64,000 nucleotides of DNA from Desulfurobacterium atlanticum (GTDB lineage: Bacteria; Aquificota; Aquificia; Desulfurobacteriales; Desulfurobacteriaceae), in contig NZ_FZOB01000001.1 of the NCBI RefSeq assembly GCF_900188395.1, forward strand, positions 244,981 through 308,980, read 5' to 3'. Below are positions 41,212 through 58,529 of the stretch, piece by piece; position 1 is the stretch's first letter; every line of letters begins with the position of its first letter. The notes under the pieces were generated by a model. That model did no database searches. It worked only from the letters and a program-made list of their open reading frames with translations, and was not told where the DNA came from. Made by a program: the position numbers and the translations under genes.

Positions 41212-41289
41212 AAGAGAAGAAGTTTTGTTAAAATAACACTAAATAGGGGAATTTTTAAATTTTAGATGAATTTTAATTTGGAGGTAGCT

Positions 41290-42147
41290 ATGGAGGCAAT
41301 TTCCTTAAAAACAGTACTTGAAAATTATAGGAAAACGAAAGATGAGGTTCTTACAAGTTTGAGAAAAGCTCTTAATGGTGATGGTAATGTTAATAAAGTT
41401 GCTGAAACATTTTCCGTTGGAGATTTATTTTCTTTTGGAAAATTTCTGGGAATGATTGTTGATGAAGGAGAAAATTGTTATTGGTGTTGTAAAGTTTCAG
41501 AATTTATAGAAATGGTCGGTCCTTATGACGTTATTGTTAACATTGGCAGTAAGAGATTTATAGTGGAAACTTCAAATGCTTTTATCGTGCCTAAAAGTTT
41601 AATGGGCAAAGCGTTCAAAGCAGGAACTCTAAGTGAAACTGACTTTGATTTTGTAATCAAAGCTTATGACGGAGAGAAAATTTCTTCTCATAAAACGGGA
41701 GAAGAATTTGTCCCTGATGATTTAAGGTTTTTATTTCTAAAAGAGGAAGGGGATTTAGTAAGAAAATTTGCTAAACTTGCTGGGAAAACCCTCTTTTCTT
41801 CTACAGAAAAACTTCAGACAAGTGATAAAGAAGAAAACAATTGTATAATTCTTTCCTTCATTCCTGAAGATGTTTTTGAAATAGTTGCTGCTGATACTGA
41901 AAATAAGGTGGAGTATGCAGATGACTTTGTCCTTTTAAGAGAAGGAGAGGGAATTAAAATTTTTCCGTCTAAAAAATTTGTAGGAAAAAGAGGAATGATT
42001 AGAATATTTGGTAAAGAAAAATTTTATGAATCTGTGCCCGGGGAGATAATTTTGAAATCTAAGGATGAAAAATTGTCATCTGTTCCCCTTTCTATTTTGG
42101 TTGGAAAAATAAAAATAGAAAGGGAAAGTGATAAAGATGAAGTTTGA
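41290..42147 (+). CDS. unknown protein, first gene of the CRISPR type III island; candidate partner of the Lon-SAVED protease
   Basis: 285 residues (about 32 kDa) from ATG 41290, chosen because GGAGGT lies at 41280-41285; an in-frame ATG at 41266 would put that RBS inside the gene. No signal peptide, no membrane helix, no recognised domain. Residues 1-60 are helical; the middle has YWCC and beta-strand-rich stretches (YDVIVNIGSKRFIVETSNAFIVP), and the C-terminal third another beta region (FVLLREGEGIKIFPSKKFVGKRGMIRIFG). Its end overlaps the protease start. In the CalpL-CalpT-CalpS system the protease gene is linked to its substrate (CalpT, about 33 kDa) and a sigma factor; similar size and coupling make this the prime substrate candidate, but I see no sequence proof and no sigma factor gene nearby. 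Confidence 0.6.
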   Translation: MEAISLKTVLENYRKTKDEVLTSLRKALNGDGNVNKVAETFSVGDLFSFGKFLGMIVDEGENCYWCCKVSEFIEMVGPYDVIVNIGSKRFIVETSNAFIVPKSLMGKAFKAGTLSETDFDFVIKAYDGEKISSHKTGEEFVPDDLRFLFLKEEGDLVRKFAKLAGKTLFSSTEKLQTSDKEENNCIILSFIPEDVFEIVAADTENKVEYADDFVLLREGEGIKIFPSKKFVGKRGMIRIFGKEKFYESVPGEIILKSKDEKLSSVPLSILVGKIKIERESDKDEV

Positions 42148-43657
42148 TGAATATCCTGTTGATATTGTTATTGAATTTGTTAGAGAAGGGAGAACTATTC
42201 CTTTTGAGGAGAATGAAGAATATATCAGAGAAATCTTTTTAGGTGAATCAGTCACTGATAAACATTTCTTTCTGCAGAATCTTTTGTTGTTTAGACTTTT
42301 AGATGAAATACCTATAAGTGAAATTGAAAAAGTTATGGCTATGGAAATTGTTGATGTTAAACATTTTGAGTTTCCTGCAATTTCTGTTTCAAACAAACAA
42401 AACGATTGTGTGTTGAGGGGGAAGATCGTTTATACCAGTAAACCACCGAAAAGAAACAGTTTTTTAGTTGACAATAATGTGATTCGGGCGTGTAAAACTT
42501 TCAAAAGTTTGTTTAATACGAAAAATTTTATTTTAGTGTTTGATGGTAGAGAATTTACAGGGACGTCATTTATGCTCTCTGTTGTTGTAGCTCACTTCTT
42601 TTCTCAAAAGTTATTTGAGTATTTTATGTTTACAGGAGAAGTTCTTCCTTCAGGAAAAATAAACAAAGTGGACTCTATTCTGGAGAAAAAGAAACTTGCA
42701 CAAAGGTATGGAAAAAAACTTATATCACCTGAAGACGTTTCTTCTATTGAGGAAGTTGATTTCTGGCTTAACGAAAGCAAACCTCTTCCTGTTCCTTTTT
42801 CTGTGATGATAAAGAAAAATAATGATGGTTTAAAGCTTCTTGAGAGTGCGATAAAAGAAAGGGAGCCTTTGTTTTCTCTAAAAAATTTGGAGGTTTTTTT
42901 TGAGATAAAGCGCGAAGATATTTCCATACTGCATTCTGGGTTTTTGTCGGAAAATTATCAGGAGTGGCTGGCTTTTGTTCACAGAATAAGGGAGCAACTT
43001 AGGAAGCTTTTTTCTAATGAGAAGCTGGTAGAGCTAAAAAAACCTGTTATAAACTTAATATGTTCAGAATCCATTATAAGTTTTGTAATTGGAGTGCTTG
43101 TTGGTACCAAGAAGAGAGTAGTTTTTCATTCATATAACCGTGGCGATAACGTTTATGTTCCTTCAATGGAAACAGATGATAGTTTAAGAAGTTTGGATTT
43201 TCCAGGGGCTGAATTTTGTGGAGAGTTGATAGATTACGAATATTTTATATCAGATAAAAATAAAAATGTTCTTCCAGTAATTATTGATATGGCACCGACA
43301 ACGAGAATAGAGTATGATGTAAAAGAATTTTTAAAGAAAAATAGGATTGAAAATTTCATCGTTATAAAAATAGATAGAGACAAAATTAAGAACTACATTC
43401 CTGAAGATACAAATATACGGAAAAAATTAGTAAAAGAAATTTATAATTTGTTAAATTGCCAGACTTTTAAGAAATTTTCAAAGTTATGGTTTTTTATGAA
43501 TCTTCCTGTGGATATAGCTTTCGGACTTGGAAGCACTTTTCAGGATACAAGGATGATTTCACTATTTAAATTTTTTCCAGGAAAGAAAGATAAATATGTA
43601 GAGGTTTTAAATGTTTCTCCTGGACCTTCCCCTGGTGGTGTTAAAAGTATTTTTTAG
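42137..43657 (+). CDS. Lon-protease/SAVED fusion (CalpL-like CRISPR effector)
   Basis: 506 residues from ATG 42137 (GTG 42128 is an alternative). Residues about 90-215 resemble a Lon protease domain: REFTGTSFMLSVVVAHF parallels Lon's catalytic G-P-S-A-G stretch (Ser144), FTGEVLPSGKIN parallels Lon's T-G-E strand, and the Lys184-186 cluster in SILEKKKLAQRYGKKLI falls about 41 residues after the Ser, where the dyad Lys is expected; SPEDVSSIEE parallels Lon's following P-x-x-N segment. The C-terminal half (about 240-500) looks like a SAVED cyclic-nucleotide sensor, with KKFSKLWFFMNLPVDIAFGLGSTF near its end. CRISPR Lon-SAVED proteins are activated by cyclic oligoadenylate from Cas10. Gene order next to Cas10 supports this. 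Confidence 0.75.
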   Translation: MKFDEYPVDIVIEFVREGRTIPFEENEEYIREIFLGESVTDKHFFLQNLLLFRLLDEIPISEIEKVMAMEIVDVKHFEFPAISVSNKQNDCVLRGKIVYTSKPPKRNSFLVDNNVIRACKTFKSLFNTKNFILVFDGREFTGTSFMLSVVVAHFFSQKLFEYFMFTGEVLPSGKINKVDSILEKKKLAQRYGKKLISPEDVSSIEEVDFWLNESKPLPVPFSVMIKKNNDGLKLLESAIKEREPLFSLKNLEVFFEIKREDISILHSGFLSENYQEWLAFVHRIREQLRKLFSNEKLVELKKPVINLICSESIISFVIGVLVGTKKRVVFHSYNRGDNVYVPSMETDDSLRSLDFPGAEFCGELIDYEYFISDKNKNVLPVIIDMAPTTRIEYDVKEFLKKNRIENFIVIKIDRDKIKNYIPEDTNIRKKLVKEIYNLLNCQTFKKFSKLWFFMNLPVDIAFGLGSTFQDTRMISLFKFFPGKKDKYVEVLNVSPGPSPGGVKSIF

Positions 43658-43686: not shown

Positions 43687-43714
43687 TGGAAAAATTCGTT
43701 TGGGGGGATTGAGT

Positions 43715-45403
43715 GTGGAGTCTTACCTTCTCAAAGGAGATATCAATGGAATACAAAATTTTATCTATTCTGTAAAAGAAGGAAAGGGAGGTGTTGCAAA
43801 AACGTTAAGAGCAAGAAGTTTCTTTATTACAACAATTCCCTCTTACATAGCATACTTTTTAAAAGAAAAGCAACATCTTGAGGTTGAAGTTTGTCTTGAT
43901 GGTGGTGGTGGTTTTATATTCAAAGTTTCGGGAGAAAATGTTGAAAGTGCATTAAAAGAACTTAAACAAAAAGTGGAAGCAGTTTTTATTGAGAAATTTT
44001 CTGGAGAGTTAGGAATTACTATTGAGTGGTTGCCTTCTGGGAAGGGAAATTTTTCAGACCTTCATGAAGTTACGTTGAAAGCTAAAAAAAGGAAATTTTC
44101 CACCTATTTTGAGAGCGTTAAGAATCCAATTTTCCTTGAAGATAAAGGAAAAGTTAAATGTGAGGTTTGCGATATTTACTTTACAGATTCAGATGATGGT
44201 ATATGTAAACTTTGTAAAGAGTTTATGGAAGTCGGGACAAAACTTCCATCAAAAAAATTCTGGAAGATTACAGATAAAAAAGAAGGAAGAGCGTTTTTCT
44301 CTATTAAAGAATTTGGATGGCTTATTTTTCCAAAAAATGGAGGGCATGAAGCATTCCGGAAGGAGAGTTATAGAGACAGTAAATGCAAAAAATACAGCAA
44401 TGCTCCTAAAAAATTTGAGATAGTTGTACCTGTTATTTCAAGAGATTTAACACAAGAGGATATTAAAAAGTATTCCCTATCAGAGGAGCTTGAAAATCTA
44501 AAAGAACATCAAATCGCACCTTTTGAGATAATAGCCTATCACAGTGAAGGAGATAAAAAACTTGGTTATTTGATGATGGATGTTGATAACCTTGGGTTAC
44601 TTTTCGGTCAGTTGGATGATGTTGGCAAACAGCAAAAGCTTAGCTCTATAATAGATATGTTTTTCTCTGAAAAAATTCCGGAGATAGCAAAAGCAGAAAA
44701 GTTCGTTCCTGAAAACTCTGATCTTCTAAAAGAAACTCTTATCTACCTTCTATATTCAGGAGGAGATGACCTGTTTGCAATAGCACCGTGGAACGTTCTT
44801 ATAGATTTTGCTGTGTGTGTGAGAGAGAAATTCAAAAGTTATATATCAGAATCACTTAAAGGGAAGGATTTACTTGGTAATGATACAAAAAAAGATTCTT
44901 ACGAATTGATAACTGTTTCAGCAGGAATTTATATAAGTAAACCGAAATTTAATATAAGAGCAGCTGCAGAAAAATGTAAAGATGCAGAGTACAGAGCAAA
45001 AACTGTTACCTCTTTCAGCAAAAAGAAAGAGAAATCATACTCTAAAGATGCTGTTTGTGTGTTTGATGTTGTTGTTCATTGGGATGATATAAATGATTTG
45101 TTGTCGGTTTCCAGAGATCTGATTTCCTACATTGAAAGTGGAAAGTTATCCCGCGGTTTTGTCTATAAGTTACACTCTCTTTATAAGGAAAAGATTGAAA
45201 ATCCGGTAAATTCTGGAAAAAGACCTGATTTAAGTTTTTATCCTCTTATCTATTATTTTGTGGGAAGAAATATAGAAGATGATGAAGTTAGAAATTTTGT
45301 TACTGAAAAAGTAATTAAAGAAGCGGAGGATTTTGAAAACATTGAAAATAATAAACTTAAGTTTATAACAAACTATGTGCTTCTTGCTACAAGGAGGTTA
45401 TAA
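43715..45403 (+). CDS. cas10: Cas10/Csm1, HD-less, with intact GGDD cyclase
   Basis: 562 residues from GTG 43715, seven bases after GGGGGG; the TTG starts upstream overlap the RBS. It opens directly with the first Palm domain (LLKGDINGIQNFIYS); the N-terminal HD nuclease normally present in Csm1 is absent and there is no room upstream for it. A zinc-binding insert has CEVC and CKLC (about 149-168). The second Palm domain has LMMDVDNLG and SGGDDLFAIAP (GGDD about 350-353), so synthesis of cyclic oligoadenylate should be possible while ssDNA cleavage is not expected. This fits a locus with a SAVED sensor. Confidence 0.92.
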   Translation: MESYLLKGDINGIQNFIYSVKEGKGGVAKTLRARSFFITTIPSYIAYFLKEKQHLEVEVCLDGGGGFIFKVSGENVESALKELKQKVEAVFIEKFSGELGITIEWLPSGKGNFSDLHEVTLKAKKRKFSTYFESVKNPIFLEDKGKVKCEVCDIYFTDSDDGICKLCKEFMEVGTKLPSKKFWKITDKKEGRAFFSIKEFGWLIFPKNGGHEAFRKESYRDSKCKKYSNAPKKFEIVVPVISRDLTQEDIKKYSLSEELENLKEHQIAPFEIIAYHSEGDKKLGYLMMDVDNLGLLFGQLDDVGKQQKLSSIIDMFFSEKIPEIAKAEKFVPENSDLLKETLIYLLYSGGDDLFAIAPWNVLIDFAVCVREKFKSYISESLKGKDLLGNDTKKDSYELITVSAGIYISKPKFNIRAAAEKCKDAEYRAKTVTSFSKKKEKSYSKDAVCVFDVVVHWDDINDLLSVSRDLISYIESGKLSRGFVYKLHSLYKEKIENPVNSGKRPDLSFYPLIYYFVGRNIEDDEVRNFVTEKVIKEAEDFENIENNKLKFITNYVLLATRRL

Positions 45404-45834
45404 TGAGTAGGAAAAATCAGCAGTCGGAAAAAAATTTGCTAAAAGAAATTAATCGCAAATTGTCAGCTGTTGAATCTATTTCTGATGTTTTTAAAGAAAG
45501 CGACATATATAAACCTGAAGGTAAGCTTTTTAAAATTCTTGAACAAAACAAAAATGCGTTTAAAACCACTCAACTAAGAAAGATTTTTTCCGAAATAAAA
45601 ATGATAGAGATGGAAATAGAAAGGAAAAAAGAGTTAACGCAGGAGGTAAAGAAAAGAATCTTTCGTCTTTACCCAAAACTTGCTTACTCAAAAGCTCGCG
45701 ACTTAATCAAAGAAGACTTTTACCAATTCTTTATCCTTTTACTTGAAAAAATGGAGAAAAACAAAGAAGAAGCTTTAAAAGTATGTGATGTTTTTACCTC
45801 TATTGTTGCCTTCAAAAAATATTTAGAATCATGA
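45403..45834 (+). CDS. csm2: Csm2, small subunit of the type III-A complex
   Basis: 143 residues, all helical. The signature TTQLRKIFSEIKMIEME is the Csm2 T-Q-L-R-K-F motif, followed by RLYPKLAYSKAR and the C-terminal DVFTSIVAFKKYL, which matches the family's end. This gene decides subtype III-A rather than III-B. Its ATG shares one base with the cas10 stop; the RBS AAGGAGG is inside cas10. Confidence 0.88.
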   Translation: MSRKNQQSEKNLLKEINRKLSAVESISDVFKESDIYKPEGKLFKILEQNKNAFKTTQLRKIFSEIKMIEMEIERKKELTQEVKKRIFRLYPKLAYSKARDLIKEDFYQFFILLLEKMEKNKEEALKVCDVFTSIVAFKKYLES

Positions 45835-45856
45835 AACTTTGAAGTGGGAGGATGAA

Positions 45857-46621
45857 ATGGAAGAGCAAAGATATCATTTTTACGGAAATGTGCTAATACC
45901 TTTTAGGCTTGAAGTTGTTACAGGACTTCATATTGGTGGATCAAAAGAGGGATTTGACATAGGAGGAGTTGACAATCCCGTTATTAAACTGCCGTTTGAC
46001 GTAAAAGTTAAGTCTGAGTTTTCAGGTGAAGAATATGTTGTGCCTCGTGAATTTCCTTACATTCCTGGTTCAAGTTTAAAAGGAAAAATAAGGAGTCTTC
46101 TTGAATGGGAAAATAATCTCGTTAGAGAAGACGGTTCTCCGACTGCCGATCCTGATAGTGCGGTAGGAAAAGTTTTTGGAATCGCTGACAGTGATAGAGA
46201 AAAAAGGAAAAAAGCAGGACCTGTTAGATTAAGAGTTTTTGACTCCTACATTTCTAAAGATAGCATTGAGAACGATTTTTATACAGAGCTTAAATATGAA
46301 AACTCCATAAACCGTATAACTTCAGAAGCAAATCCGAGGCCTTTTGAGAGAGTTCCTGCTGGAACAGTTTTTGAAGGGAGATTCCTTCTTAAACTTTTCG
46401 CAAGGGAAGATGTTGATTTCTTAAATCTTATTGAAACAGGAATGAAACTGCTGGAAGATGATTACCTTGGAGGTGGAGGTTCTCGGGGATCTGGAAGGGT
46501 AAGATTTTCGGATATTAGAATTGTATTCAGGGATAAGAAATTCTATAAAGGTGAGTGTAAAGAGAAAATTTTCACAGATTTCAGGAACGCTATTGAAGAA
46601 ATAAAAAAAACTATAGGGTGA
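45857..46621 (+). CDS. csm3: Csm3, backbone RAMP with target-RNA cleavage Asp
   Basis: 254 residues from ATG 45857, placed five bases after GGGAGG; a TTG 18 bases upstream is in frame but poorly placed. GLHIGGSKEGFDIGGVDNPVIK contains Asp39, the position of the RNA-cleaving Asp of Csm3; IPGSSLKGKIRSLLEW is the RAMP glycine-rich/arginine motif, and GGGGSRGSGRVRF the C-terminal one. Forms the filament along crRNA and cuts target RNA every six bases. Confidence 0.93.
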   Translation: MEEQRYHFYGNVLIPFRLEVVTGLHIGGSKEGFDIGGVDNPVIKLPFDVKVKSEFSGEEYVVPREFPYIPGSSLKGKIRSLLEWENNLVREDGSPTADPDSAVGKVFGIADSDREKRKKAGPVRLRVFDSYISKDSIENDFYTELKYENSINRITSEANPRPFERVPAGTVFEGRFLLKLFAREDVDFLNLIETGMKLLEDDYLGGGGSRGSGRVRFSDIRIVFRDKKFYKGECKEKIFTDFRNAIEEIKKTIG

Positions 46622-46626
46622 TATAG

Positions 46627-47595
46627 ATGGAAAGTGTAAGAATTCTTATTAAACCGACTTCTCCGTTAAAAAGTGAACTTTCTTCTTACACGCTATTTTC
46701 AGCTATCTGTTGGGGATTAAAGTTTCTATATGGAGATGATTATGTTAAAGAGTTAGTAAATATGGTTTCTTCCAGTAAATTTTTTATATCTTCTTTGATG
46801 CCTGTAGATATAGAGAAGAAAAAATTTTTTTACTTTAAACCAGAACTTGAACCTGTAATAGAGAGAGAAACCGATCCTGAAAAACGCAGCGAAAGAAGAA
46901 CGATGCAGAAAAAATTTAAGAAAAAGAAATTCATAGATTTTCTTTCTTTAAAGAAAATATTAGATGGAGTGATAAAAACAGAGCTTGAACTTATGAATTT
47001 CCTTGTTGATGAAAATGGAAACGAAACATTCTATATAAGTTTAGAATTTCCTCATGTAAGTATAGACCGATTTTCAATGACAGCTAAAGAAGGTCTGTTT
47101 TTCTATGAAAGTGCGGTTTTTATAGAATCCGGGTATTTTATTGTTTTTGCTGAAGAGGAAATTTTAAATGCTGTGGAAAAATCTTTAACTCTTTTAAAGG
47201 ATTGGGGAATAGGCGGAAACAGAAATATAGGTTATGGAGCTTTTAATTTTGAAATTTTGAAGGACGAAGAGCTAAATATTCTTTCCGATTACTTTATCCG
47301 ATATTTTAATGGAGCGACAAGCTTTATTACTCTTTCTCCTGTAATTCCAACTTCAAATATAGATTTTTCAAAAAGCATGTATTCTCTTTATACATTCAAA
47401 GGTGCAGCGGAATACGATTTTCAAAAAGATGTTTTATGGAAGAGAAAAGTGTTTTATATGAAGGAAGGTGCGGTTATAAAGAGGAAAAAAACAGATGAGA
47501 CGGCAGGTGCTATATTGGATGTTTCTCCTGAACCTTCAGTTTCTATTTTTCAATACGGTCTTGAATTTCCTTTGTGTTTAAGGGGTGAAATATGA
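46627..47595 (+). CDS. csm4: Csm4, crRNA 5'-handle-binding RAMP
   Basis: 322 residues. The N-terminal SPLKSELSSYTLFSAICWGLKFLYGDD is the Csm4 pattern; GIGGNRNIGYGAFNFEI is the glycine-rich RAMP loop. Binds the crRNA 5' tag and joins Cas10. Overlaps csm5 by four bases. Confidence 0.88.
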   Translation: MESVRILIKPTSPLKSELSSYTLFSAICWGLKFLYGDDYVKELVNMVSSSKFFISSLMPVDIEKKKFFYFKPELEPVIERETDPEKRSERRTMQKKFKKKKFIDFLSLKKILDGVIKTELELMNFLVDENGNETFYISLEFPHVSIDRFSMTAKEGLFFYESAVFIESGYFIVFAEEEILNAVEKSLTLLKDWGIGGNRNIGYGAFNFEILKDEELNILSDYFIRYFNGATSFITLSPVIPTSNIDFSKSMYSLYTFKGAAEYDFQKDVLWKRKVFYMKEGAVIKRKKTDETAGAILDVSPEPSVSIFQYGLEFPLCLRGEI

Positions 47596-48730
47596 GATTT
47601 CGTTTGACAACTCTGACACCACTACATATAGGAACCGGACAAAACATATCCCCTTTTGAGTTTATAATTAAGGATGGAAGATGTTATATTTATGATATTA
47701 CTGATATTGTAGGTATCAACTCAATAGTTGATCTGAAATTGAAAAATATGCTTAAAAATTCTGCAACTTCATTGAGTCTAAAAAAGATAATTACTGATTC
47801 ATCTATTAAAAAGGTTTTAGATAGGATAAAGCCCCTGTATTCTATTGCTATTGAAATAGACTTTCAACAAGGTTCTATGAGATCTGGAAATATAAAAAAT
47901 ATTGAAGAGTTTATAAAAACCAATAATCTTGTATATATTCCCGGTAGTGAAATAAAAGGCAGTTTAAGAAGAGCCCTTTTTTATTACATTCTGAGCAAAG
48001 AAAAGAAAATCGGTGGTTCAATATATATCAAATTTATAAAGAAACTTCAAGGTATTGTGCATCAGTATCAAAAGGAAAAGAAAAATTCAGAGGACTTTAG
48101 AGCTTTAAAGAGAAAGTTCAAAAAGAAGTTAAGTAGACTGGTTCAACAGATAGAGTTTGAAGTGTTTCGTGGAGAAAAGTTTACTGAGGACGCAAAGAGA
48201 GATGTTTTAAGATTTGTAAAAATCAGTGATACTGAATCTAAAAGTCCTGAAGAGGTTCTTTCTTTGCGAGAAATTTACATTTATTATTACCACGGTAAGA
48301 GAAAACAGTTCTCAATATTTTCTGAAACTGTGGACCCAAAAGTTTCTTTTTCATTTAACTTGGATATTGATAAAAGAGGAATAAAAAACTGTGGTTGTCA
48401 CGAAATTTTAAAAGACATTTTTATTAACGATAAGCTTTTACGTAGTTGGTGTTCTGCTGAAATATGGACTTTAAATAAGGATGAATATTTAAAGTCTCTG
48501 TGTCCCCTGTTGTTAAAAAAATGTTTAAAATGCCAATAATAAGAATAGGAAAACATGAAGGATTTTTATCAACAACAATCACAGCCTTGGTAAAAGACGA
48601 CGAAGAACTTTTTGAAGGAATTTTTGAAATAGTTGCTCCTAAAATGAGTGAAATTCCAAATAAAACGAGAAAACTTACGGCAGTTGAGAAATTGCCTCTT
48701 GGGATATGTAAATTAGGAGAAGAAAAATAA
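47592..48730 (+). CDS. csm5: Csm5 split by a -1 frameshift at an A7 tract
   Basis: The first part (47592-48539, 315 residues) has TTLTPLHIGTGQNISPFEF and IPGSEIKGSLRRALFYYIL, both Csm5 features, but ends abruptly after LLLKKCLKCQ. The conserved Csm5 C-terminus (IRIGKHEGFLSTTI, NKTRKLTAVEKLPLG) is found in the -1 frame up to 48730. The two are joined if one base is re-read at A7 (48515-48521), in zero frame TTA-AAA-AAA-TGT, i.e. the classic heptamer A-AAA-AAA. Programmed ribosomal or transcriptional slippage, or an under-counted A8 in the assembly, would all give a full-length Csm5 of about 379 residues. Csm5 caps the complex at the crRNA 3' end. Confidence 0.85.
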
Positions 48731-49500
48731 TGCCTGTTAGTTTCAATTTGAGAGTATCTATTAACAGGAAAATTAACATAGAGGAATTAAACCCCGAAAG
48801 AATTCATGCTCTTTTCTTCAGTTTTCTTCCAGAAAGTATGGCTAAAAGCTTGCATGCGGATAATATAAAACCCTTTTCTCTATCATATCAAAGATTTTTT
48901 AACAGTAATAAAGAAAGAGAGATAGGAAGTTTTATACTAAAAATTTCTTTTCTCAAAGAAAAAATGTTTCCACTGTTTGTTAAAGAAGTTTCCAAAGCTG
49001 GAAAAGATAAGAATGTTGTCATTGGAAAAGCAAAGGTAGTTAAGACAAAAATCAGTTCTGTTAACTATATTTCTTATGCAGAACTTTTAAATAATGCTGG
49101 TTATGAAAAGGATATAGTTTTTCAGGTTATAACTCCTGCAACTTTTAAAAAAGGAAAATATGATAATCCATCTCCGGTTCCATCTCTTATTTTCAAAAGT
49201 CTATTTAGAAAATGGAACCATTTTTCCAGACTAAAGCTGCCGATTTCAGAAACAGAGTTTATAAAGTTGGTTAAAAGACATGTTTTAACATCTGGCTTAT
49301 GGATAAAAACGGAAAAAGTTTTCATATCTCTTTCTTTTAAAAAACTTATAGGCTTTAAAGGTAGGTTATACTTCTATATTGACACTGACAATAAGCAACT
49401 TTTAAAAGTTTTAAATGCTTTATCTGATTTTTCAGAGTTTAGTGGTATCGGCAGGAAAACAACTATGGGTTTTGGTAGAATAAAAAGAATTAATAGTTAG
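48730..49500 (+). CDS. cas6: Cas6 CRISPR repeat endonuclease
   Basis: 256 residues. N-terminal ferredoxin-like fold, middle FQVITPATFKKG, and the diagnostic C-terminal glycine-rich loop FSGIGRKTTMGFGRI. Cuts the repeat transcript 3' of its short hairpin, leaving the 8-base 5' tag ATTACGAC. The ATG shares one base with the csm5 stop. Confidence 0.92.
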   Translation: MPVSFNLRVSINRKINIEELNPERIHALFFSFLPESMAKSLHADNIKPFSLSYQRFFNSNKEREIGSFILKISFLKEKMFPLFVKEVSKAGKDKNVVIGKAKVVKTKISSVNYISYAELLNNAGYEKDIVFQVITPATFKKGKYDNPSPVPSLIFKSLFRKWNHFSRLKLPISETEFIKLVKRHVLTSGLWIKTEKVFISLSFKKLIGFKGRLYFYIDTDNKQLLKVLNALSDFSEFSGIGRKTTMGFGRIKRINS

Positions 49501-49525: not shown

Positions 49526-51145
49526 ATGAAAGAGGTAAGATGGGATGACCTGATAGAAAAGGTTAGTAAAGTTGAAAAAATTGTAAATGAAATAAAAACT
49601 ATAGGTGGAATAAATGTTGATTGGATAGAGGAGAAACTTGAAAGAACAAAAAAAGATATTTATGGAAAAGTGTTTAAGATTTCTGTTTTTGGTGGATTTT
49701 CAGATGGAAAATCTACAATTATTTCGTTTCTGCTAAAACGTAATGACATAGAAATATCACCAGAACCGACTACAGATAAAGTCAACTATTATAAATACAA
49801 GAATAAAAATGTAGTTATTGCAGATACTCCTGGGCTATTTTCTGAAAACTTAATTCATGATGAAGAAACAAAGAGATTTATATCTGAATCTGACCTTATT
49901 ATCTTTGTAACCGATGCACTCAATCCTTTGAAAGAGAGCCAGCATAGGGTTATAAAGTGGCTTCTTAAAGATCTGGATAAAAAAGACTCAACAGTCTTTG
50001 TCATTAATAAAATAGACACAATGGATGTTGACCTGTATAACAGGGAGGACTTTGAGAGAGCTTGCAAAATAAAGAAAAAGGTCGTTTCAGAAACTCTTGA
50101 TAGAATTATTGGGGAAAATGCAGGAAACTATCGGATTATCTGTGTTGCTGCTGATCCATGGGGGATGGGAATTAAATACTGGATGGAGAATATTGAGGAG
50201 TATTTTTCCATCTCAAATATGAAGGTTCTTGAAGAAATTATAGAAGAAACCATTAAATCTCCAGAAACAATGAATATTCTTTTTGAAAAAAAGGTAAATT
50301 CGGTTATAAAAGATGTTAAAAACGTTTTTTCTGTGGAATTGAGGAATAACCTGAAAAGTCTTGAAATCTCCCTTGAAGAGCTTGAAGTGGAGCTGGAAGA
50401 GCTTGATAGTGAATTAAGAAAACTTGAAAAGCATATTACAAAGGCCACAAGGGACTTTAAGGAGCGAATTCGTAATTTGAGAAGTTCTATATTAAGGAGA
50501 ATAAAGTTATGTAACAATACAGAAGAGTTGGGACTGGTTGTCCGCGAAGAGTTGGGCCCTGAAGCAGTAGTTTTAAAAAGTAAAATAGAAGATATTTTCT
50601 ATGAGTGTTTTACTCCAGTGACAGAATATCTTGAAAAGTCAGGGGATATTTTTTTAAAAATTGTTGAGGATTACCAGAAGCTTAAGATGGAATCCTCAAT
50701 TTTCGCCAGCAAGTTTTTAACTTCTGCTACAAAAAAGACAGGAGAAATTTTAGGTAAAATTCCTCCTGATAAATTAAGGGATGGTATTTTACAAACAAGA
50801 GACCTTTTAAGAATTCCTTTTAAATTTAAACCGTGGGGGGCTTTGAAACTTGCAAGATTTCTCAATACATTGGGACCCGTTCTCGGTGCCGTTTCTTTAG
50901 GTATGGAGCTTTATAATCAGTATAAATTAAGAAGGGAAAAAGATAATCTTATAGAAGCAGTGGATTCCCTGTTTTCTGTATTTTTAGGAGATTTTAACTC
51001 TCAATATATTAAAGAAAACTATTTTTCTGCAGTTGTTGAAATGGAAAATTTAAGGGATGCTATTTATGATGATTGTAAGTTTATGAGAGAAAGGATAGAA
51101 AATATGAAAAACTTGATTACAAAGGTGGAGGAACTTGGGCTATGA
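49526..51145 (+). CDS. dynamin-like GTPase A
   Basis: 539 residues. GTPase domain: P-loop GGFSDGKS (56-63), a switch Thr in SPEPTTDKV, DTPG (100-103), NKID (161-164). Long helical stalk with coiled-coil pattern (about 260-340: LEISLEELEVELEELDSELRKLEKHI), then a short hydrophobic segment at about 443-463 (ARFLNTLGPVLGAVSLGMELY) that could act as a membrane paddle. GTPase head, helical stalk and paddle is the bacterial dynamin-like plan. A good RBS (AAAGGAGGG) is at 49511-49519. Overlaps the second GTPase gene by four bases. Its place between cas6 and cas1 suggests a role in the CRISPR response; I do not know of an established role. Confidence 0.72.
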   Translation: MKEVRWDDLIEKVSKVEKIVNEIKTIGGINVDWIEEKLERTKKDIYGKVFKISVFGGFSDGKSTIISFLLKRNDIEISPEPTTDKVNYYKYKNKNVVIADTPGLFSENLIHDEETKRFISESDLIIFVTDALNPLKESQHRVIKWLLKDLDKKDSTVFVINKIDTMDVDLYNREDFERACKIKKKVVSETLDRIIGENAGNYRIICVAADPWGMGIKYWMENIEEYFSISNMKVLEEIIEETIKSPETMNILFEKKVNSVIKDVKNVFSVELRNNLKSLEISLEELEVELEELDSELRKLEKHITKATRDFKERIRNLRSSILRRIKLCNNTEELGLVVREELGPEAVVLKSKIEDIFYECFTPVTEYLEKSGDIFLKIVEDYQKLKMESSIFASKFLTSATKKTGEILGKIPPDKLRDGILQTRDLLRIPFKFKPWGALKLARFLNTLGPVLGAVSLGMELYNQYKLRREKDNLIEAVDSLFSVFLGDFNSQYIKENYFSAVVEMENLRDAIYDDCKFMRERIENMKNLITKVEELGL

Positions 51146-53085
51146 CTGCTCGTGAGTTTATAGAAAATAGTATTCAGGAGTTTGAAAAAATTTTAGAAGA
51201 TTTTGAAGAGAGAAGTGGGGTTATTCTTAAACGTGTTGCTTCCAAGACAAAAAGAACAAAAAGAAAATATATTGATAAGGAAGATAAGATTTATAAAAAG
51301 ATAGAAAAGAGAATAAAAGATTTTTATCATAACCTTTCCCTTCTTGGAAAGGAGATGGAGTTTGATACTTTAAACGTAGCTTTTTTTGGAGAAACAAATG
51401 TAGGTAAAAGCACTCTTATAGAAGCCCTAACAAAAGGAGATGGTAGCACTATTGGTGATGGAAGAAAAGATTTTACAAAAACATTTAGAGCAAAAAATTT
51501 TGGTAGAAAAATATTTCTGCTTGATATGCCAGGTATTGAAGGAAATGAAGCTATAGTTTCTGAAGAGATTAAAAGGGCAGCTAAAAAATCTCATATTATC
51601 TTTATAGTAATTCCTGAAAATAAAGAACCAGAAGAAGGATTTCTTGAAAAAGTTAGAACATATATCGGGGATAGCACATTTGTATTTGGTATTATCAATT
51701 TAAGAGGAATTTTTCCTTTAAATGTTCTCGAGAAGAAAAAAAAGAACATTGAGATCGTAAAAAAACGTACTGAACAAAAATTAAAAGGAGAATTTGGTAA
51801 AGCTTTTAAAGAAATATTTATTGTTCATGGTTTATACGCTTTTTTTGCTATGAATAGTGGAATTCCTGAAAGCCAGAAATCCTCTTACGAGAGGGTTATG
51901 AAATTTGTCAAAAATGATAGAGAGAAGCTTAAGGAGTTTTCTGGAATAAACAAAGTAATAGAAACCATAGGAACATATAAAACTTTCTCAAACAATGTAA
52001 TTTTATGGAGTAATATTTACAAGCTTTTCAAAAAAGAGAAAGAATTAATCATAAGTGTAAGAGAGGAGAGAACTCAGCTTAAAAAAACTATTGAGGATTT
52101 TCTGAAAGAAATAGAAAAACTTAAGAGAAAATTTGATTCACAAAGTGAATCTTTACTCAGCGATATAAACTCAGAAGTATTTTTCCGTTTAGACGAATTG
52201 AGAGATGAACTTGAGGAGCTTATATGTAACGCCATAGATGCTGGAAGGGATAAAGATGATTTAAATTCAGAGATAGAGGAAAAAATAGATCTCTGTATAG
52301 AGGAAATGGAGGAAAATATAGAATATTATCTTGACGATTTTATAGAGGATGTAAACAAAGATATTGAAAAATTGATTAAGAAATTAAAATTGAAGTTTAA
52401 AAGGATAAACCTGGGAACAGATATTGGAATTGATGTAGACTTTACAGAAGCATTTAATAGTCTTTCATTGTCTTTTAAGGAAGCAGCGCTTGGAGCATTA
52501 AGTATATTGGAAAGTATCGTTTCTATTTTAACAGGTCCGATAGGTGCAGTTATTGCTGGTATTTTTGGTTTGTTGAACACCTTCCTATCCTGGCTTTTTG
52601 GAGGAAATTCAAAGAAAAATGAAGCCAAGAGAAAAGCTATAAATGAAGTAAACAAAACTATCAGAAATATACGAAATAAGCTCAGGAGAAAAGTTAATGG
52701 TGAACTTAAAAAACTTAGAAGAGAGATTAACAAAGTTGAAAGAGAGATATTAAAAATAGAAAAACAGATAGAAAATAAAGTGGAGTATTGGGATATTCTA
52801 ATTTCCTTACTTGTAGAACATTACATATCTTTATCAACGAATTTCTTTAAGACCATTACTCAATCTGTAGAGTTTGCTTACGTTGCTCCTGATTCAGGAA
52901 AGAATAAAGAACCTGTAGCTATTATTGTTGGAGGAGATATAGAAAAAATAGGATATTTTTGTAATAACATTGGAATTAAAGTCTACTTCAAAGATTCTAT
53001 TGAAAGCGCACTTAAAACTCTAAAATCAAAGGATAAAAAATTATACAGCGAGATAAGAAGTTTAGTGGAAAAAGAATGTTTTTGA
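51142..53085 (+). CDS. dynamin-like GTPase B with membrane segment
   Basis: 647 residues. P-loop GETNVGKS (83-90), switch region GDGRKDFTKT, DMPG (128-131). The canonical N/TKxD base-recognition motif is missing: the strand reads VFGIINLRG (181-189), so nucleotide preference may be altered. Coiled-coil stalk (about 295-420), then a 40-residue hydrophobic stretch (about 448-487, including SILTGPIGAVIAGIFGLLNTF), long enough for a membrane hairpin, then a second coiled-coil (495-550) and a small C-terminal domain. Co-translated with GTPase A; bacterial dynamins often act as such heteropairs. Confidence 0.72.
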   Translation: MTAREFIENSIQEFEKILEDFEERSGVILKRVASKTKRTKRKYIDKEDKIYKKIEKRIKDFYHNLSLLGKEMEFDTLNVAFFGETNVGKSTLIEALTKGDGSTIGDGRKDFTKTFRAKNFGRKIFLLDMPGIEGNEAIVSEEIKRAAKKSHIIFIVIPENKEPEEGFLEKVRTYIGDSTFVFGIINLRGIFPLNVLEKKKKNIEIVKKRTEQKLKGEFGKAFKEIFIVHGLYAFFAMNSGIPESQKSSYERVMKFVKNDREKLKEFSGINKVIETIGTYKTFSNNVILWSNIYKLFKKEKELIISVREERTQLKKTIEDFLKEIEKLKRKFDSQSESLLSDINSEVFFRLDELRDELEELICNAIDAGRDKDDLNSEIEEKIDLCIEEMEENIEYYLDDFIEDVNKDIEKLIKKLKLKFKRINLGTDIGIDVDFTEAFNSLSLSFKEAALGALSILESIVSILTGPIGAVIAGIFGLLNTFLSWLFGGNSKKNEAKRKAINEVNKTIRNIRNKLRRKVNGELKKLRREINKVEREILKIEKQIENKVEYWDILISLLVEHYISLSTNFFKTITQSVEFAYVAPDSGKNKEPVAIIVGGDIEKIGYFCNNIGIKVYFKDSIESALKTLKSKDKKLYSEIRSLVEKECF

Positions 53086-53322: not shown

Positions 53323-54255
53323 ATGAGAAACATTTTTGTTACAACTCATGGTGCATCTTTAACTAAAAGAAAATATGAGCTTATTGTTACTCTGAATTCC
53401 AAAAAACACACTATACCTTTTGGAAGTTTTTCAAACTTGTTTATAGTGGCAAATGTTAAAATTTCCACTCCTCTTATAAAAGCGTTAACTGAAAATAAAA
53501 AAAGTGTTTTCATACTTAAATCAAATGGCACTTTAACTTCAATGATACTTCCTCCTTTTTTGAATTCATCGGCAAGAAGAAGAGTTGCTCAATATAAAAA
53601 GTTTGAAGATGAAAGTATTAAAATATTTATGATTAAAGAACTTCTAAGAAGAAAGTCTCTTCTTACTCAATGGACGCTTGAGAAATTTTACGATTTTTCA
53701 GAAAAACACTATCTTGAAAAAAACATAATAAAAAGTTTTTACAGGTGCACTAAAGATTGGATAGAAAAATCTTCAAGCATTGCAGCACTCAGGGGGATAG
53801 ACGGCTACATTATGAACACCCTTTACGATCATTTCGCTCAATCAATTTCAAAATTCTGGGAATTTGAAAAAAGAAGCTACAATCCACCTAAAAATGAAGT
53901 GAATAGTGTGCTTAGTCTTGTCTACACATACACATATTCCATACTTACTTCTATAATAATTTCTTATAATCTTGATCCTTACTGTGGATTTTTCCACGAA
54001 AAACATGGAAAACATGCAGTTCTCGCTTCTGATTTATTAGAACTACTAAGGCCTGGATTAATTTTTTTTGTAGCTGACATTCTAAACAGTAGATACATTG
54101 AAGCTACTGATTTTAAAAAGACACGAAAATCTATACTGATAAAGCAACCTGCATTAAAAGTAATTTCTAAGTTATACTCAGAAAAAGTATTAAATGGTTC
54201 CTTTTTCTATCCAGTTTCAGCATTTATTCATGAAATAATGTTAAGAGGATTGTAA
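53323..54255 (+). CDS. cas1: Cas1 integrase with Asp in place of catalytic Glu
   Basis: 310 residues: N-terminal beta-domain (FVTTHGASLTKRKYELIV, TIPFGSFSNLFIV) and helical C-terminal domain. The three metal ligands align as Asp160 in LRGIDGYIMNTLY (nearly always Glu in Cas1), His225 in CGFFHEKHGKH and Asp237 in LASDLLELLRP. The Glu-to-Asp change is conservative and may keep activity. Preceded by a GGGGGAAGG ribosome-binding site. Starts the adaptation module cas1-cas2-cas2. Confidence 0.92.
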   Translation: MRNIFVTTHGASLTKRKYELIVTLNSKKHTIPFGSFSNLFIVANVKISTPLIKALTENKKSVFILKSNGTLTSMILPPFLNSSARRRVAQYKKFEDESIKIFMIKELLRRKSLLTQWTLEKFYDFSEKHYLEKNIIKSFYRCTKDWIEKSSSIAALRGIDGYIMNTLYDHFAQSISKFWEFEKRSYNPPKNEVNSVLSLVYTYTYSILTSIIISYNLDPYCGFFHEKHGKHAVLASDLLELLRPGLIFFVADILNSRYIEATDFKKTRKSILIKQPALKVISKLYSEKVLNGSFFYPVSAFIHEIMLRGL

Positions 54256-54272: not shown

Positions 54273-54533
54273 GTGAAATATCTTGTTGTTTACGACATTT
54301 CAGATGATAAAATACGTAATAAAGTTTCAACAAGGCTTAAAAAATTCGGTATGCGTGTTCAATATAGTGCTTTTGAAATAGAGATAAAGAAAACTGACTA
54401 TATCAAGCTCTACAAAGAAATAGCTTCGATTATAGATAAAACAGACTCTGTGTTCTTTTTTCCATTATCATCCTATTCAGAAAGCTTAATATTAAAACTT
54501 GGACAGGTGAAAAGAGAGGAAGATGTAATATGA
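54273..54533 (+). CDS. cas2: Cas2, first copy
   Basis: 86 residues, GTG start after AAGGAGG. Begins KYLVVYDISDDKIRNKV with the conserved Asp of the Cas2 ferredoxin fold, then FGMRVQYSAFEIEI and VFFFPLS. Typical length. Overlaps the second copy by four bases. Confidence 0.92.
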   Translation: MKYLVVYDISDDKIRNKVSTRLKKFGMRVQYSAFEIEIKKTDYIKLYKEIASIIDKTDSVFFFPLSSYSESLILKLGQVKREEDVI

Positions 54534-54850
54534 AATATAAATTTTCCAATAGGATAACAACTTACATAATAATTTATGACATTTTATCAGATGATGTTAG
54601 AGGGTGGGTTTCTCTGGCAAACCGTAGAAGGGCAAAAATTTCCAGAATTCTTTTAGAATACGGTATGAGAACTCAAAAAAGTGTATTTGAACTTGAAATA
54701 ACTTCCAAAAAAGAGTTTTCCAGAATGATTAAAAGATTAGAGAAAACTATGAATAAACATGATAAAGTATACATCTATCCAATAGATTCTAAAAATAAAA
54801 AGAAGATAAAAAGATTGGGATATGAAATTGAAACAGATTTTTTCTTTTAA
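54530..54850 (+). CDS. cas2: Cas2-like protein, second tandem copy
   Basis: 106 residues. TTYIIIYDILSDD with the Cas2 Asp, RRAKISRILLEYGMRTQKSVFELEI and KVYIYPID, the same fold elements as the first copy but strongly diverged and with a longer N-terminus. Cas2 works as a homodimer between two Cas1 dimers; two unlike copies in one operon could form a heterodimer. Confidence 0.85.
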   Translation: MKYKFSNRITTYIIIYDILSDDVRGWVSLANRRRAKISRILLEYGMRTQKSVFELEITSKKEFSRMIKRLEKTMNKHDKVYIYPIDSKNKKKIKRLGYEIETDFFF

Positions 54851-55183: not shown

Positions 55184-58100
55184 GTTGAAATGCCCTTAGA
55201 ACCGAAAGGGATTACGACTTATTTCCAATTTAATTTTGTTCATCTCACACCTCCTTAAGTTGAAATGCCCTTAGAACCGAAAGGGATTACGACTTGTAAA
55301 TATACAGCATTTTCATAACAACCTCCTCTTGTTGAAATGCCCTTAGAACCGAAAGGGATTACGACTATAATATCACTTATATTTGACGCCTCAATCGAAT
55401 TATGTTGAAATGCCCTTAGAACCGAAAGGGATTACGACTATAATATCACTTATATTTGACGCCTCAATCGAATTATGTTGAAATGCCCTTAGAACCGAAA
55501 GGGATTACGACTATAATATCACTTATATTTGACGCCTCAATCGAATTATGTTGAAATGCCCTTAGAACCGAAAGGGATTACGACAATATCTAGAAGTTTG
55601 TTATAACTAATATATGTTTTTAGTTGAAATGCCCTTAGAACCGAAAGGGATTACGACATTTAATATTATTTTAGTATCTTTCACTATATCCTTATATCCA
55701 TGTTGAAATGCCCTTAGAACCGAAAGGGATTACGACTGTAATCAATACTTTCTAATTCATATGAACTAACTGTTGAAATGCCCTTAGAACCGAAAGGGAT
55801 TACGACCCGCCAAATGGCGGCTGACTCTTCTTTCCAATTTTATTGTTGAAATGCCCTTAGAACCGAAAGGGATTACGACGATAATATTTCTAATGAAGTA
55901 TCACCAACACGTTTCAATTCGTTGAAATGCCCTTAGAACCGAAAGGGATTACGACACGCATCCCTGGCCACCCCCTTTCACCGGTGGTGCAAACGACCGT
56001 TGAAATGCCCTTAGAACCGAAAGGGATTACGACCCGGGTTTATTTCCCGGCCTCTCTATCTTTGGAGATCCCCTCATGTTGAAATGCCCTTAGAACCGAA
56101 AGGGATTACGACTACAACATTTTCATGACTTACCACCTCCTATTTTATTTGTTGAAATGCCCTTAGAACCGAAAGGGATTACGACTTTAGCTAACATATT
56201 TATACTTGCATATAATGTTTTTGATAAATGTTGAAATGCCCTTAGAACCGAAAGGGATTACGACATTAAGTATCTTTGTTTATAGATCTTAAAGTATACT
56301 TCGTTGAAATGCCCTTAGAACCGAAAGGGATTACGACTAAATAATACCGAACTATCATTACCAACACTCTTTTTAACTGTTGAAATGCCCTTAGAACCGA
56401 AAGGGATTACGACCCTCAGAAGAGGGAGGGGGTTGATGCCCAGGGCATAGCCCTGGTTGAAATGCCCTTAGAACCGAAAGGGATTACGACTCGTATCCAC
56501 CAGCAACGTACAATTTATTATCAAAGGACGTGTTGAAATGCCCTTAGAACCGAAAGGGATTACGACATACTCCGTTTCAGATAACTTTTGAGGGAACTGG
56601 ACTAATACAAAGTTGAAATGCCCTTAGAACCGAAAGGGATTACGACCGATAAGGAGCATGAAGAGTTCAAACATATTACCTCCTGTTGAAATGCCCTTAG
56701 AACCGAAAGGGATTACGACAGGTAACTTCTCCGGTAACTGAATCATAATATACCTAGTTGAAATGCCCTTAGAACCGAAAGGGATTACGACTCTCATGTT
56801 TACCTCCTAAAAATAATAATTTATTTCAGTATAGTTGAAATGCCCTTAGAACCGAAAGGGATTACGACATTATATTCTAATATTGTTTGCATGAGCTTAA
56901 AGTGGTTGAAATGCCCTTAGAACCGAAAGGGATTACGACCAGGGTTCGGGATTCTTGATATGAAATAGATCCTCCTTGCGGAGTTGAAATGCCCTTAGAA
57001 CCGAAAGGGATTACGACACCGCCAAATGGCGGTCAACCTTTCTTTCTAGTTTTACTAATGGTTGAAATGCCCTTAGAACCGAAAGGGATTACGACCAAAA
57101 ATATTTTTTTATTGTATAGAGGAGGACGGGGATTAGTTGAAATGCCCTTAGAACCGAAAGGGATTACGACACACAACAAAAATAACTACTTCTATAAACA
57201 TAATATATGTTGAAATGCCCTTAGAACCGAAAGGGATTACGACATATTTTGAGACTGAATAAATATTCAGAATATAATAACTATGAGTTGAAATGCCCTT
57301 AGAACCGAAAGGGATTACGACATATTATCATTTACATATAGATCTATAAGTCTATTATAAGTTGAAATGCCCTTAGAACCGAAAGGGATTACGACTTATT
57401 GGTGGGTATGTCTATTATCATGCCATCTTCTATTTTATGTTGAAATGCCCTTAGAACCGAAAGGGATTACGACATCCGATATCTTCAATTTCTTCAACAG
57501 TATACTGTTGAAATGCCCTTAGAACCGAAAGGGATTACGACTATCCCTCTATTCTTTTATAAAGATACAACATTTTCATGACTTTACGTTGAAATGCCCT
57601 TAGAACCGAAAGGGATTACGACATATTATCATTTACATATAGATCTATAAGTCTATTATAAGTTGAAATGCCCTTAGAACCGAAAGGGATTACGACAAGA
57701 TGAATAGATATAATTTCATCAACGGAATTACCGAGTTGAAATGCCCTTAGAACCGAAAGGGATTACGACAATACTACGACGACCAGAGAGGAGAAAACTC
57801 TTCCTCGTTGAAATGCCCTTAGAACCGAAAGGGATTACGACCCCAGGGCATAACCCTGGGCCACTAGACTTGCTATATCAGTGTTGAAATGCCCTTAGAA
57901 CCGAAAGGGATTACGACAAAGTTGCTATATCAGTAAGGACCTCTTGAATGAGGTCCTTAGTTGAAATGCCCTTAGAACCGAAAGGGATTACGACTTGGAT
58001 GTATCTCATCTACATCTATAATAAATGGGATATTTTTTAAGTTGAAATGCCCTTAGAACCGAAAGGGATTACGACAATCCAAAATCAGTTAATTTATTTA

Positions 58101-58529
58101 GAAGAGATATATTAAGTTGAAATGCCCTTAGAACCGAAAGGGATTACGACATTTAGCATACTTTGGAAATATATCCATAGATAATCTAAATTTAAATGTT
58201 GAAATGCCCTTAGAACCGAAAGGGATTACGACAGTATGTATTCTCCCATTTTCTTATAAATATACAACATTTTGTTGAAATGCCCTTAGAACCGAAAGGG
58301 ATTACGACTATCCTTATATCCATATAACATATCCTTTAAAAAGTTGAAATGCCCTTAGAACCGAAAGGGATTACGACGCTTCAGGTGCGTGTATTCGTGA
58401 AGCAGCACTTTTATGGAGTGTTGAAATGCCCTTAGAGCCGAAAGGGATTACGACCAGGGTGGCGGGTTACCACGATATCTGCCTTTGACACCGTGTTGAA
58501 ACGCCCTTAGAACTGAAAGGGATTACGGC
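55184..58529 (+). CRISPR. type III-A CRISPR array, 45 repeats of 35 bases, 44 spacers of 33-47 bases
   Basis: The repeat begins GTTGAAATGCCC and ends AAAGGGATTACGAC. Inside it CCCTT and AAGGG form a 5-bp hairpin, and the eight bases after the stem, ATTACGAC, would be the crRNA 5' tag after Cas6 cleavage (compare ATTGCGAC tags of Thermus type III). All repeats are identical except the last two: 58420-58454 has one change, and 58495-58529 has three. Those mark the distal end, so transcription runs left to right from the cas2 side. Spacers 3, 4 and 5 are identical, and spacers 29 and 33 are identical. Confidence 0.97.

Follow-up and report, generated by a model that had tools for sequence, protein, structure and literature searches.

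The CRISPR array in the 64,000-nucleotide stretch of the Desulfurobacterium atlanticum genome analyzed here (the window) contains several spacers whose reverse complements read as ribosome-binding sites followed by start codons. This raises the question of whether a type III system selects or acquires its spacers at translation starts, or whether the pattern originates with the invaders that it records. The array belongs to a 1.74 Mb genome, which we compared within a family of 22 genomes and whose gene content suggests a thermophilic host.

Organization of the Type III-A Locus

The locus is a type III-A (Csm) system that is free of reverse transcriptase (RT) and includes a cas1 gene and two cas2 genes of its own (Table 1). 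Specifically, it combines a Cas10/Csm1 protein bearing a palm domain with csm2 to csm5 and, as judged from array statistics, with transcript-complementary spacers. Cas10/Csm1 matches positions 230-753 of its profile only, and the N-terminal part, the expected site of the HD domain, appears from this match to be absent. The HD nuclease of Cas10 is found in many, but not all, type III-A members, and because HD-less Cas10 variants are known, a missing HD domain does not exclude the locus from type III-A. No RT above threshold was detected in the genome, and the RT fused to or near Cas1 that marks RNA-acquiring (RT–Cas1) type III systems was not found.

In terms of effector genes, the locus resembles the Calp system, a type III-A system with a CalpL/T-type SAVED-Lon effector, in its csm1-5, cas6, cas1, cas2, and SAVED-Lon genes and in a weakly CalpT-like neighbor. 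Within the CalpL/T/S module, CalpL is represented by the SAVED-Lon protease, the CalpT partner by a weak CRISPR-T match only (41266-42147), and no CalpS gene was identified. The locus further differs from the Calp system in the LeoA/LeoBC-type GTPase pair located between cas6 and cas1. A second small open reading frame beside cas2 also occurs in two sister loci of the same genome.

The array is the only one in the genome with its repeat, as no other copy was found when up to 3 mismatches were allowed. Spacers 3, 4, and 5 are identical, as are spacers 29 and 33, which leaves 41 unique sequences among 44, and the corresponding repeat-spacer duplications lie at 55366-55549 and 57322-57661. The terminal repeat at the right end (58495-58529) is degenerate, and the sequence ahead of the first repeat is closer than the downstream regions are to the upstream flank of a sister array. 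These two observations place the leader on the left and assign the crRNAs to the + strand. The spacer coordinates of the original prediction, which was made from the sequence by a model, were exact in every case.

Table 1. Genes, array elements, and hairpins of the type III-A locus (positions within the window)
Feature	Position	Strand	Remarks
CRISPR-T (CalpT-like)	41266..42147	+	weak match
SAVED-Lon protease effector (CalpL-like)	42128..43657	+	PDLC02009, E 1.4e-147
Cas10/Csm1	43700..45403	+	567 aa; TIGR02578, 303.8 bits; palm2 PF22335
csm2, csm3, csm4, csm5	45403..48539	+	TIGR01870, TIGR02582, TIGR01903, TIGR01899, all above cut-offs
cas6	48730..49500	+	
Two dynamin-like GTPase genes (LeoA and LeoBC-type)	49526-53085		between cas6 and cas1
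cas1	53323..54255	+	without fused RT
Two cas2 genes	54273-54533 and 54530-54850	+	
CRISPR array	55184..58529	+	45 repeats of 35 nt, GTTGAAATGCCCTTAGAACCGAAAGGGATTACGAC; 44 spacers (41 unique)
Spacer 1	55219..55258	-	target-sense AGGAGGTGTGAGATG, start-type
Spacer 2	55294..55330	-	target-sense GAGGAGGTTGTTATGAAAATGCTG, start of recurrent MKMLYIYK gene
Spacer 9 hairpin	55807..55820		CCGCCAAATGGCGG, flush with edge
Spacer 12 hairpin	56034..56050		CCGGGTTTATTTCCCGG, flush with edge
Spacer 13	56113..56150	-	start of MKMLYIYK gene, diverged relative
Spacer 17	56414..56455	+	opposite-sense start-like motif, overlaps hairpin
Spacer 17 hairpin	56441..56455		CAGGGCATAGCCCTG, flush with edge
Spacer 20	56647..56684	-	target-sense AGGAGGTAATATG, start-type
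Spacer 22	56792..56833	-	target-sense TAGGAGGTAAACATG, start-type
Spacer 25 hairpin	57018..57033		ACCGCCAAATGGCGGT, flush with edge
Spacer 32	57542..57587	-	MKMLYIYK gene start MKMLYLYKRIEG; ribosome-binding site beyond spacer
Spacer 35 hairpin	57788..57806		GAGGA...TCCTC, flush with edge
Spacer 36 hairpin	57842..57860		CCCAGGGCATAACCCTGGG, flush with edge
Spacer 37 hairpin	57934..57959		10-bp stem, flush with edge
Spacer 41	58233..58273	-	MKMLYIYK gene, first codons KMLYIYKKMGEYI
Spacer 43 hairpin	58378..58403		GCTTCA...TGAAGC, flush with edge

Start Motifs and Strand Asymmetry

A strict start motif (GGAGG-N4-11-ATG) was scored on both strands of the spacers, with dinucleotide shuffles as the control. 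Spacers 1, 2, 13, 20, and 22 carry it in their reverse complements, and these are precisely those in which a GGAGG-type ribosome-binding site followed by ATG had been predicted; the mean in dinucleotide-preserving shuffles of the array spacers was 0.12. On the direct strand the motif occurs in spacer 17 only, the one opposite-sense case that had also been anticipated, giving a strand ratio of 5:1 rather than equality; the spacer 17 motif is likely due to chance. One gene start (MKMLYIYK...) is covered in diverged versions by spacers 2, 13, 32, and 41, and since spacers 2 and 13 share this site, the five motif spacers amount to approximately four independent sites. Apart from these start-region spacers, most appear by their sequence to be sense coding sequence, and at least one open frame is present on the targeted strand in 39 of the 41 spacers. 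Recurrent targets inside genes were also seen (55658-58342): spacers 10 and 16 give the similar peptides KRVGDTSLEIL and KKSVGNDSSVLF, and spacers 7 and 42 overlap, constituting another such target.

The comparison was extended to another 270 unique type III spacers, drawn from genomes of the family (311 in total with the array), the arrays of other genomes being labeled type III by repeat similarity. These additional spacers contain 15 target-sense and 3 opposite-sense motifs, against a shuffle mean of 1.31. The genome that carries the array also has a type I system with cas3 and arrays of a different repeat, whose putative I-B subtype was called from the repeat. Spacers from the type I arrays of this genome and its relatives (208 unique) served as the type I control. 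Across the family, the start motifs divide 20:4 between the strands in type III and 3:8 in type I (p 0.002); within this genome alone, the corresponding ratios are 8:1 and 2:7 (p 0.015). Coding strands are purine-rich, and the targeted strand was the purine-rich one at a ratio of 239:59 in the 311 type III spacers versus 102:98 in the 208 type I spacers. This second measure needs no motif, and it agrees with the start-motif asymmetry in type III.

Because the type I spacers lack the purine skew and differ in the strand ratio of their start motifs, the sense asymmetry can be assigned to type III. The proposal that these crRNAs pair with mRNA, as type III requires, is therefore well supported as a statistical statement, drawn from the spacers themselves rather than from mapped protospacers. 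Such an antisense arrangement is expected of a type III-A system that lacks an RT. A database-wide study has likewise reported that type III spacers prefer the coding strand by approximately 2:1 (PMC8482600). The present comparison indicates that, without annotation, type III and type I arrays that share their hosts can be told apart by start motifs and purine skew, and that mRNA targeting in natural arrays is visible without any protospacer.

Frequency of Start Motifs Relative to Phage Baselines and Type I Spacers

The frequency of the start motif was compared with a baseline defined as the chance of finding it in one sense 40-mer. For host DNA this chance is 0.007-0.008, whereas prophages of the family and related viral contigs give 0.019; it ranges from 0.006 to 0.026 in single phages and prophages, with Thermus phage P23-45 among those at the upper end. 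The observed 20/311 in type III is approximately 2.5-3 fold over the phage baselines (p 2e-4 versus 0.026), which derive from a small number of phages and prophages without a demonstrated target of these spacers among them. With the type I control, a different picture emerges. In this genome, 9/105 type I-B spacers and 9/79 type III spacers contain start motifs (p 0.62), and the start frequency here is thus not specific to type III. Outside this genome the counts are 2/103 for type I and 15/232 for type III, a nominal difference that leaves room for a modest type III start effect in other genomes.

The start frequency is above the prophage and phage baselines in both system types. Overall, the high frequency mostly reflects start-dense invaders or an acquisition bias common to both systems, and as the type I control matches type III, invader architecture is the simpler cause. 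The original prediction of selection or acquisition at translation-start regions hence survives as an excess over shuffles and phage baselines, but is not supported as a property of this type III system, given the similar type I-B frequency. Apparent start-site targeting by a type III array should therefore be checked against type I spacers of the same cell before a mechanism is read into it.

Searches for Targets

No protospacer was identified in any of the collections searched. Against phage and plasmid records, the native array stretch had nothing beyond short matches attributable to chance, and the 311 type III spacers had zero matches to the family prophages and related viral contigs. The recurrent gene start was sought, by its DNA sequence and by a back-translated pattern, among viral contigs, 136 genomes of the phylum, and genome contigs, and was found only in this array; stray matches were set aside as apparently due to chance, being without a nearby ribosome-binding site or in an unrelated metagenome-assembled genome. 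Two further patterns returned nothing from the viral contigs, and no copy of spacer 20 was found in the host genome. We infer the gene positions of the targets from the spacer sequences alone. One contig in the comparison set (L122; G000:C21), at least the start of which is N-masked, is exactly 5386 bases long, the size of phiX174, a common sequencing control.

Origin of the Spacer Pattern

Taken together, we consider it probable that the pattern combines DNA-derived spacers, selection for mRNA pairing, and start-dense invaders with one repeatedly matched gene start. Spacers would be captured from the DNA of invaders, with retention of those that yield a crRNA able to pair with mRNA of the invader, such that selection for transcript pairing would give rise to the sense asymmetry in both start motifs and purine content. 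Start-region spacers would be numerous mainly since the invaders of this host are densely packed with genes that have strong GGAGG ribosome-binding sites, and the several spacers on one conserved gene start would raise their count as well. Because the start frequency lies above all of the phage and prophage baselines obtained, one has to suppose that these unseen invaders are unusually gene-dense. A slight preference for gene boundaries during acquisition, in common with type I-B, may also contribute. Once target RNA is bound, gene content predicts that Cas10 would make cyclic oligoadenylate and thereby activate the adjacent SAVED-Lon protease. A selective origin of strand bias has precedent in Thermus type III systems, in which unique spacers are evenly spread and the bias arises by selection (PMC7515739). 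The Thermus thermophilus system is likewise RT-free with transcript-complementary spacers, but its bias is regional (early genes) and was shown to result from selection (PMC7515739), whereas the bias reported here is known from array statistics.

A less likely, though credible, alternative is that a preference for gene starts and for hairpin-forming regulatory DNA is built into the adaptation machinery, with transcription exposing single-stranded coding-strand DNA whose stem-loops are preferred as prespacers. This has been proposed for the type III-A system of Streptococcus thermophilus, for which a review (describing Zhang et al. 2021) reports an enrichment of encoding-strand spacers in the region 10-50 bp past the start codon, as well as at stem-loops, oriT, and tRNA genes, with single-stranded hairpins as the suggested substrates (PMC9048733). 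The likeness to our spacers extends to encoding-strand sites near start codons, to hairpins, and to tRNA genes, and both start motifs and hairpins exceed genomic rates here. With respect to tRNA genes, the evidence is a single spacer of a relative (L079 spacer 3; G002:C38:2490-2526) that resembles the T-arm and acceptor at the 3′ end of a tRNA gene and has no copy outside the array in that relative's genome. What weighs against such a preference is that type I-B spacers of the same genome, the control in which we differ from the S. thermophilus work, have a similar start frequency, and that selection alone can give strand bias (PMC7515739). Moreover, once lengths are matched, type I and type III spacers exceed their shuffles in hairpins to a similar degree (p 0.04 to 0.37), and a hairpin excess is thus no clear hallmark of type III. 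The present data fit both the selection account from Thermus and the hairpin-substrate account from S. thermophilus.

Since this general hairpin excess is shared, only the position of the hairpins is special to this array. Flush hairpins, defined as perfect stems of at least 5 bp with at least 3 G/C that end exactly at a spacer edge, occur in 8 of the 41 array spacers (9, 12, 17, 25, 35, 36, 37, and 43; 55807-58403), as compared to an expectation of 0.35 (0.34 in shuffles, 0.0085 per spacer in genomic 40-mers). When related spacers are merged, six classes remain (p 1e-6), numbers that are strong but post hoc, as the hairpins were noticed by eye before testing. Elsewhere, flush hairpins were found in 8/270 of the other type III spacers, 3/208 of the type I spacers, and 1/38 of those in the sister type III arrays of this genome. 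Edge-flush hairpins do not feature in the consulted section of the review on S. thermophilus adaptation (PMC9048733). They could mean that hairpins set the prespacer ends, with boundary stem-loops folding in exposed single strands and trimming stopping at the stem base, in combination with a partly intrinsic start preference, which we regard as unlikely.

Selection for start-region spacers as such, either because binding there blocks translation or because it meets the most abundant portion of the transcript, is quite improbable. The motifs do lie on the targetable strand, and one gene start is matched four times, but the position of the ATG within the motif spacers varies freely, and type I, which needs no RNA pairing, equals type III in start frequency in this genome. 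In addition, type III immunity acts by RNA detection and signaling, not by a block of translation. Capture of RNA-derived spacers from transcript ends, to which the presence of both starts and terminator-like hairpins might point, is largely refuted and hardly to be credited, given that no RT was detected in the genome or fused to Cas1. As a final observation, the 3′ end of the array repeat (GGGATTRCGAC) appears to resemble that of the Thermus type III repeat.
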